Assembly (NCBI GenBank): GCA_017406565.1
Contig: JAFQYG010000005.1
Location: 1-64,000, forward strand
DNA: 64,000 bases
Direction: 5' to 3'
Source: Candidatus Saccharimonadota bacterium
GTDB lineage: Bacteria > Patescibacteriota > Saccharimonadia > Saccharimonadales > Saccharimonadaceae
This document shows, one piece after another, positions 478-1,719 of this stretch. The notes below the pieces were generated by a model, which worked only from the letters and a program-made list of their open reading frames with translations, was not told the DNA's origin and made no database searches. Made by a program: the position numbers and the translations under genes. Within the stretch, counting starts at the first letter, position 1, and each line of letters starts with the position of its first letter.

Positions 478-1719
478 CTATTTGCGATTTAGAATTACTA
501 GGTTTTCGATATGAGGAGTGTGAGGGAAGAAGTTGAAAGTTTTGACTGTATCAATTTGATACTCTGGTAGTAATAATTTGATGTCACGGGCTTGGGTGGC
601 TGGATTACAGGAGAGATAGATGATTATTTCTGGGCAGACGGATAAGAGTTTTTCGATGAGTTTTTTGTCGCAACCAGCGCGAGGGGGGTCGAGAATGACC
701 GTTTGTCCTTCTTCAATATAATCTAATGCTTCTTCTGACCTCGCGAAAACTGCTTGAGGGGAGTTTTTTCGGGGCGCGTCCACGGCCCCTGTCGCCACAG
801 GGGCCGTGGCGCTACTCCTCGCCTTGCCAGGCTCCGGACCCCCTTCAAAAACTCCCTCTTGACAGTTTTCACATAATTCATGGTAAGCGTATTTATCACA
901 TTCGACGAGAGTGAGATGGCGGTCAGAGGCGACTGAGAGGCCAATGGTACCGACGCCGGAATACAAGTCTAATACTTTGTCGGTATTAATGTGTTTTTTG
1001 ATTTCGGTGAGGGCTAGCTCATAAACTGGAATATTGATTTGGAAAAAACCATTGGGTGAATAGGAATACTCGCGTCCAAGAATAGTATCTGTGAGATTTC
1101 TAAACTCAGGATGAGGTTGATGATTTTCATAGAGGCCGCCCGATACTTCACCTTTTTGGTTACAGCGAAGTAGGAGTGATTGATATTTGCGAGCCTCTTC
1201 GTGACGATTGTTTAAATCGGCAATAATTTGTTGGGCTTTTTCGAAAATTTCGGGTCGTTCGAGGGAGGATTTCGTGATGGGAATTTTACGGTGAGAACCT
1301 CGTGCATGAAATGCGAGGCTAATCTTCTCTGTATTATTATTCCAATAGAGCGCGTACTCCATTTTGTTGCGATAAAAATAGTCGCATCCATCAGTAACAA
1401 CTAATGGAGAGGGAATATCGATATGATGTTCTTTAAAAATTTCGGTGATTAGTTCTGATTTTAATTGTAGCTCGTAATTATAATCAATGATTTGCCATGG
1501 TGAAGTCGATAAAAAACAATCATCCATTGGTTGAACACGAAACGGAGAATGGTTGAACACTTTTGTAGCAATAGCTTCAACGTAATGAGATTTGTTTTTT
1601 GTGATACTAAATTCAGAAACTGTTTCTTTTGGAAGTGCATTCCAGAAAAAAATTTTCTTACCATCTTGAAGAGTGCCTAGCGCTTGCCCGCCAGGAATGA
1701 TTTTGTCGACTTCTATCAT
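478..1719 (-). CDS. TrmA/RumA-family RNA (uracil-5-)-methyltransferase with an in-frame insertion
   Basis: 413 residues. The product is expected to transfer a methyl group from SAM to C5 of a uridine in rRNA or tRNA. The order fits the family: TRAM-like N-terminus (GGQALGTLQDGKKIF), central domain, SAM site VLDLYSGVGTIGL, then DPPRAGCD and the catalytic-cysteine motif YLSCNPATQARD. The Cys cluster that holds 4Fe-4S in RlmD (CGGC) is not there; the equivalent place reads CFLSTSPWQ. Between the SAM-binding acidic loop (LVECDKYAYHELCENCQ) and the next strand lies an insertion of about 35-40 residues rich in Ala, Gly and Pro, encoded by a GC-rich palindrome (745-870) unlike the rest of the gene. 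A TATAAT lies 7 nt before the ATG, so the gene is probably leaderless. The exact RNA target cannot be read from the sequence. Confidence 0.85.
   Translation of the reverse strand: MIEVDKIIPGGQALGTLQDGKKIFFWNALPKETVSEFSITKNKSHYVEAIATKVFNHSPFRVQPMDDCFLSTSPWQIIDYNYELQLKSELITEIFKEHHIDIPSPLVVTDGCDYFYRNKMEYALYWNNNTEKISLAFHARGSHRKIPITKSSLERPEIFEKAQQIIADLNNRHEEARKYQSLLLRCNQKGEVSGGLYENHQPHPEFRNLTDTILGREYSYSPNGFFQINIPVYELALTEIKKHINTDKVLDLYSGVGTIGLSVASDRHLTLVECDKYAYHELCENCQEGVFEGGPEPGKARSSATAPVATGAVDAPRKNSPQAVFARSEEALDYIEEGQTVILDPPRAGCDKKLIEKLLSVCPEIIIYLSCNPATQARDIKLLLPEYQIDTVKTFNFFPHTPHIENLVILNRK
745..870. repeat. GC-rich nested palindromic element inserted in the methyltransferase gene
   Basis: A 126-bp segment (exactly 42 codons) has imperfect inverted ends: GAAAACTG at 745-752 matches CAGTTTTC at 863-870, and GGGAGTTTTT near 759-768 matches AAAAACTCCC near 847-856. 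Its centre is a perfect 13-bp stem, 780-792 against 797-809 (CCACGGCCCCTGT / ACAGGGGCCGTGG), with a 4-nt loop. It is strongly GC-rich in an AT-rich genome and adds a stretch to the protein where other family members have a short loop. The architecture resembles palindromic elements inserted in frame in Rickettsia genes (RPE). No second copy was seen by eye in this window. Confidence 0.7.

Follow-up and report, generated by a model that had tools for sequence, protein, structure and literature searches.

The segment at positions 745–870 of the window, by which we mean the whole 64,000-nucleotide stretch of DNA that was analysed (contig JAFQYG010000005.1 of a Candidatus Saccharimonadota bacterium), is one copy of a dispersed repeat family. 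The core of this repeat has moved between genes and species, while the arms that flank it are specific to each locus and covary within it. We hold, with moderate confidence, that the most suitable description is that of a selfish mobile palindromic element that is translated in frame and whose arms are made by template switching; both the translation and the template switching are inferred. Its distribution is almost wholly limited to one genus of Saccharibacteria from the ruminant gut, and no paper on such elements in these bacteria was found in the literature searched.

The inserted segment and its host gene

The host is a gene for a methyltransferase of the RlmD/RumA/TrmA type, with a Pfam tRNA_U5-meth_tr match (2.6e-16), an NCBIfam rumA match (3e-45, yet under that model's whole-protein cut-off, 183.55 bits) and 1uwv RumA among its PDB matches. 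The features of the locus are the following:

478..1719, minus strand: RlmD/RumA/TrmA-type 23S rRNA (uracil-5-)-methyltransferase gene, 413 aa
745..870, minus strand: inserted palindromic element (core and most of the arms), open in the frame of the methyltransferase gene
769..846, minus strand: mobile core (GAAGGGG...CCCCGA), 78 nt, common to other copies
847..873, minus strand: outer stem P1, upstream (mRNA 5') locus-specific arm, from the inverted ends and the fold
742..768, minus strand: outer stem P1, downstream (mRNA 3') locus-specific arm, from the inverted ends and the fold
816..838, minus strand: core hairpin P2 (TCCGGAGCCTGGCAAGGCGAGGA), from the structure of covariance model R1
776..812, minus strand: core hairpin P3, tip CCCCTGTGGCGACAGGGG, 16 bp with one bulged A and compensatory changes from copy to copy

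The initial annotation, made from the sequence alone, had proposed a GC-rich palindromic insertion lying in frame inside a conserved RNA methyltransferase gene, and most of its description held. The open reading frame runs uninterrupted across 745–870, and the extra residues sit between the SAM-site motif GVGTIGLS and DPPR, as had been claimed for the SAM-site and DPP motifs. The claimed inverted ends (745–768/847–870) are imperfect, with 75% complementarity over 24 nt; the central 13-bp stem (780–792/797–809) is perfect; and the GC content reaches 0.63 at 721–840 versus about 0.30–0.45 farther away. The extent of the element had to be refined, since only 769–846 is mobile and the outer arms are locus-specific. 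When near-identical cores are compared across different genes, position identity drops at the edges 769 and 846 from near 1 to about 0.25.

The RNA fold of 735–880 (minus strand) has an energy of -84.9 kcal/mol versus -50.1 ± 4.0 kcal/mol in dinucleotide shuffles (z = -8.8, with none of 200 shuffles equally stable), and its shape is a three-way junction, not a single hairpin. In the AlphaFold model of the protein, the insert is positioned in a loop of the predicted fold, between helix 276–286 and strand 322–325; residues 290–317 have a pLDDT below 50 and the rest of the model is confident (mean 87.4).

Distribution, reading frames and mobility

A DNA search of the window's genome (G000) gave four more strong copies, in obg, valS, an rsuA/rluB-type pseudouridine synthase gene and miaA, and covariance models added others. 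The five strongest copies of this genome all use one frame and have the three-way-junction fold in common, with compensatory changes. Among 50 rlmD orthologues of the genus a long insert between the two motifs is present in 21 and missing in 29. The reading of the segment as a repeat that spreads into proteins would have been refuted by a loop carried in all orthologues and by the absence of further copies; neither was the case, which supports that interpretation.

Two related families were modelled, family A with covariance model R1 and family B with R2, the core being about 78–85 nt long across both; some matches are shared by the two models, and the E-values are rough. Family A has about 14 matches in the 0.8-Mb genome of the window and is present in 33 of the 40 sampled genomes of the genus, and family B reaches up to 21 matches and 39 genomes, respectively. 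When R1 was searched across 149 genomes of the order, the matches were all within the genus apart from a single marginal one (E 1e-3), with none in about 20 genomes of other genera of the same family. The only family-B matches outside the genus are weak ones, in two genomes that belong to a single further genus. A scan of 84,980 species for an exact 19-mer returned Saccharibacteria, mostly from the ruminant gut, and five unrelated records in which the covariance model found no element. There was no Rfam match near the gathering score.

Family B has a P2 hairpin different from that of family A and a similar P3 tip, and it lies in frame in queA, obg and other genes; L102 1590–1682 is an example, and there are other places in the window's genome, where obg contains one A and one B copy. 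Two weak family-B matches face each other about 150 nt apart near a gene start in a different genus of the taxonomic family, an arrangement conserved in two genomes (L359 1501–1830 and L360 1261–1616).

Reading frames were studied on 112 distinct family-A copies scoring at least 35 bits. Inside open reading frames of at least 200 aa there are 96 of them, in both orientations and in all six frames, always free of stops. For the average genic copy 64% of the six frames are open, and a derived value of only about 56% holds for the frames not used by the host; universal openness of the host frame is thus not merely a consequence of high GC. Because "genic" was defined by a spanning open reading frame, gene-breaking copies had to be excluded by a tblastn check of the other 16 with the proteome of a relative: each is intergenic and splits no gene. 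Surviving genic copies are therefore restricted to in-frame insertions. For family B, 40 of the 46 examined copies lie in open reading frames of at least 200 aa, the other six not having been checked individually. The names of host genes outside the window's genome were read from translations and not assigned by family search. The gaps occupied by the 16 intergenic family-A copies are often very short, and the adjacent genes start or end within a few tens of bases of the element.

Movement of the core between genes and species is shown by pairs of cores that are 99–100% identical in different genes of different species, namely tsaD of G003 (L046) with obg of G095 (L069), and miaA of G000 (L005) with a tRNA synthetase gene of G035 (L042); host genes compared between species of the same set are typically only 65–87% identical. 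Moreover, the tree of the 50 rlmD genes requires 13 gains or losses, at least six of them forced by well-supported branches. The inserts at the rlmD site belong to several subtypes, and both orientations of the element are found at one site. The compared genomes are one per species and many are metagenome bins, and no two of them are related closely enough for one insertion event to be visible.

Searches for Y1, rve, IS110 and reverse-transcriptase domains in the window's genome did not reveal a mobilising enzyme. For transposases, only the Y1, rve and IS110 families were searched and none was found there; Y1_Tnp occurs in one of the 40 genus genomes, which is not G000. Genes for reverse transcriptase occur widely in the genus, in 25 of 40 genomes (examples are L323 and L324). 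They were not found in the copy-rich genomes G000, G003, G017, G024, G025 and G035, and for this reason no link to reverse transcriptase as the mover can be made. Carriage by viruses is likewise unsupported by the 19-mer matches in viral contigs: one 19-mer had no match, and a second had three, none of them a convincing element by the model.

Origin of the locus-specific arms

The arms are complementary within each site over about 18–30 bp and unrelated between sites. In family A the duplex formed by a copy's own arms has -18.2 kcal/mol, versus -6.1 kcal/mol (sd 3.0) with arms exchanged across loci; for family B the values are -16.4 and -5.7, respectively. Strict scoring gives a median of 18–19 Watson-Crick pairs, and the full fold has 28 extra pairs beyond the model. 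Identity falls to chance directly outside near-identical cores at different genes. Genome G003 has three copies with identical cores and three different, well-paired arm sets, which means that the arms form at insertion or soon after it. Between orthologous insertions, the divergence of the arms roughly keeps step with that of the host gene, and thus the arms are not fast-evolving copies of a master. Where both sides of a stem pair have been altered in orthologous insertions, 55 pairs are still Watson-Crick and 25 are not. Locus specificity and covariation of the arms are in this way shown.

Comparison with empty sites gives information on where the arms come from. The net insertion minus the model length has a median of +2.5 nt (IQR -8.5 to 10), so the arms largely occupy positions formerly belonging to the host. 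The local hairpin at 62 orthologous sites without the element does not exceed in strength those at other places in the same gene, with a mean percentile of 0.61 and 2% of the sites in the strongest tenth. In tsaD (L058) the conserved stretch FPLLSLVIS is encoded by the downstream arm, and the sequence of the upstream arm comes close to the reverse complement of that arm; obg has its downstream ADL codons in mirrored form on the upstream side. Compared with the empty orthologue, the upstream flank is the more changed at 44 sites and the downstream one at 13 (61 sites, p = 5e-5); the excess persists when counted per gene (p 0.0025) and is the same in both orientations of the element. Since the placement of gaps could influence which arm looks host-derived, these figures come from a test that included reversed sequences. 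The asymmetry might instead reflect uneven conservation around protein loops, a possibility that we keep in mind.

In this explanation the core inserts into genes and intergenic gaps in either orientation, and insertions breaking the frame are purged. The genic copies that are left lie in frame and would form flexible loops at the protein surface, although the only ground for inferring translation is the open frame. The element does not carry its arms, which are produced anew at each site. We propose that a template switch of the DNA polymerase, provoked by the stable core hairpin or by insertion as such, turns one flank into an inverse copy of the other. The outcome would be long locus-specific inverted repeats with little added length and the frame kept. 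Template switching has been described as homogenising inverted-repeat arms and inverting spacers in genes (PMC8604942), and as creating and maintaining hairpins, with perfect stems arising in one step (PMC8794818). It would account for the length neutrality, the locus-specific arms, their covariation and the fact that one site can hold either orientation. That the arms arise in this way remains an inference, with one genome per species and no insertion event caught. There is a bolder reading, to which we give slightly less than even odds, in which only a naked hairpin core is inserted and the host sequence on its flanks is then rewritten during replication, at each new site, as a matching inverted repeat. 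If this is true, the ends of the element are not its own, and the small net change in length lets it colonise essential genes.

Among the alternatives, it could be argued that the element targets pre-existing hairpins, so that the core enters their loop and the arms were already there. In its favour, the net gain in sequence is about as long as the core, and hairpins without a core exist at the rlmD site in some genomes. However, the 62 empty orthologous sites are not prone to form hairpins, and at least one of the coreless hairpins looks like a relic and not a target, so we consider this explanation unlikely. The coreless hairpins are L151, L153, L172 and L181; L172 has arms in common with the full copy L168, suggesting a loss of the core that left the arms.

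Similarly unlikely, in our opinion, is that the arms are kept by selection for a hairpin in the mRNA, for example, for excision, RNase processing or ribosome bypassing. Very stable folds and strong covariation speak in its favour. An RNA stem would tolerate G-U but not A-C, however, and on the mRNA strand the arm mismatches show no excess of the former (G-U versus A-C, 30:30). Besides, excision or bypassing would not require stop-free in-frame copies, yet these are seen in all six frames. On the element strand, strictly paired arm positions have G-T over A-C in a ratio of 24:6 under the strictest setting and no excess under the laxest; this counts against our preferred description, as it could mean selection on a single strand or on a transcript of the element.

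A conventional MITE-like element, mobilised by a transposase in trans and with own arms that drift quickly after insertion, would have similar size, palindromic form and dispersal in the genome. We find it very unlikely, given that copies with the same core differ completely in their arms as soon as the core ends, that in orthologous insertions the divergence of the arms does not outpace that of the host gene, and that Y1, rve and IS110 transposase domains were not found in the window's genome. Finally, an ordinary lineage-specific protein loop that is GC-rich by chance would fit the location of the insert in a loop of the predicted fold, but it is practically ruled out by the near-identical copies in unrelated genes and intergenic gaps and by the recurrent gain and loss at the rlmD site.

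Relation to known palindromic elements

Rickettsia palindromic elements (RPE) and the protein-coding palindromic repeats of Wolbachia offer the closest likeness, being palindromes of about 100–150 bp, dispersed, and found both in frame in conserved genes and between genes (PMC2229807, PMC10969869). The parallel with RPE drawn in the initial annotation holds for behaviour: the Saccharibacteria element, 126 nt with arms, meets the size feature of a dispersed palindrome of about 105–146 bp, and also that of in-frame insertion in conserved protein genes. Nevertheless, the family is distinct in its distribution, arms and use of six frames. It belongs to a different phylum, and the 19-mer scan gave no Rickettsia record (no alignment to RPE sequences was made). 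The shared terminal inverted repeats of RPE (12 bp, PMC2229807) are not met, as arms differ between identical-core copies; nor is the single conserved peptide per family (PMC10969869), as six frames yield several unrelated peptides. Moreover, the complementarity of the arms persists, whereas in RPE the identity of the repeats is reported to be lost over time (PMC6649704). Thus, the element works like RPE but is not RPE, differing in taxon, terminal repeats and peptide.

The coding palindromes of nematomorph mitochondria are also long inverted repeats in conserved coding sequence, with both arms translated, that are gained and lost; template switching has been proposed for them, although no shared mobile core is described (PMC6649704). 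Template-switch mutation at quasipalindromes is alike as a proposed process, with arm homogenisation, spacer inversion and perfect stems (PMC7202029, PMC8604942, PMC8794818), but it is a mutation process at inverted repeats that the same papers do not describe as a source of the ends of mobile elements. MITEs (ERIC, RUP, NEMIS) and REP elements are equally small, non-autonomous palindromic repeats; MITEs, however, have terminal repeats in common and are often accompanied by a cognate transposase, and the Saccharibacteria element has no conserved terminal inverted repeats. The REP/REPIN type (20–40 bp, extragenic, with a Y1 RAYT) was rejected, since the element is mostly intragenic and Y1_Tnp was seen in just one of the 40 genus genomes, not in G000. 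For an intron or translational-bypass (byp) element, which is removed from the mRNA or skipped by ribosomes and thus leaves the frame free, there is only indirect evidence to the contrary, in that the frame is always preserved.

Most reports of protein-coding palindromic repeats concern Rickettsia and Wolbachia. The family described here is dense, apparently recent and at home in bacteria of a different phylum with reduced genomes, and it shows that the capacity of selfish DNA to invade essential genes extends to a distant lineage. With dozens of near-identical cores and different arms, it constitutes a natural experiment on the origin and upkeep of inverted repeats. In RlmD, QueA, LepA, Der, MnmA and others the same loops have been hit repeatedly, which maps the protein loops that tolerate 30–40 extra residues. 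The longest loop at the rlmD site (L182) has 112 residues from GTIGLS to DPPR and contains an antisense family-A copy together with additional sequence.
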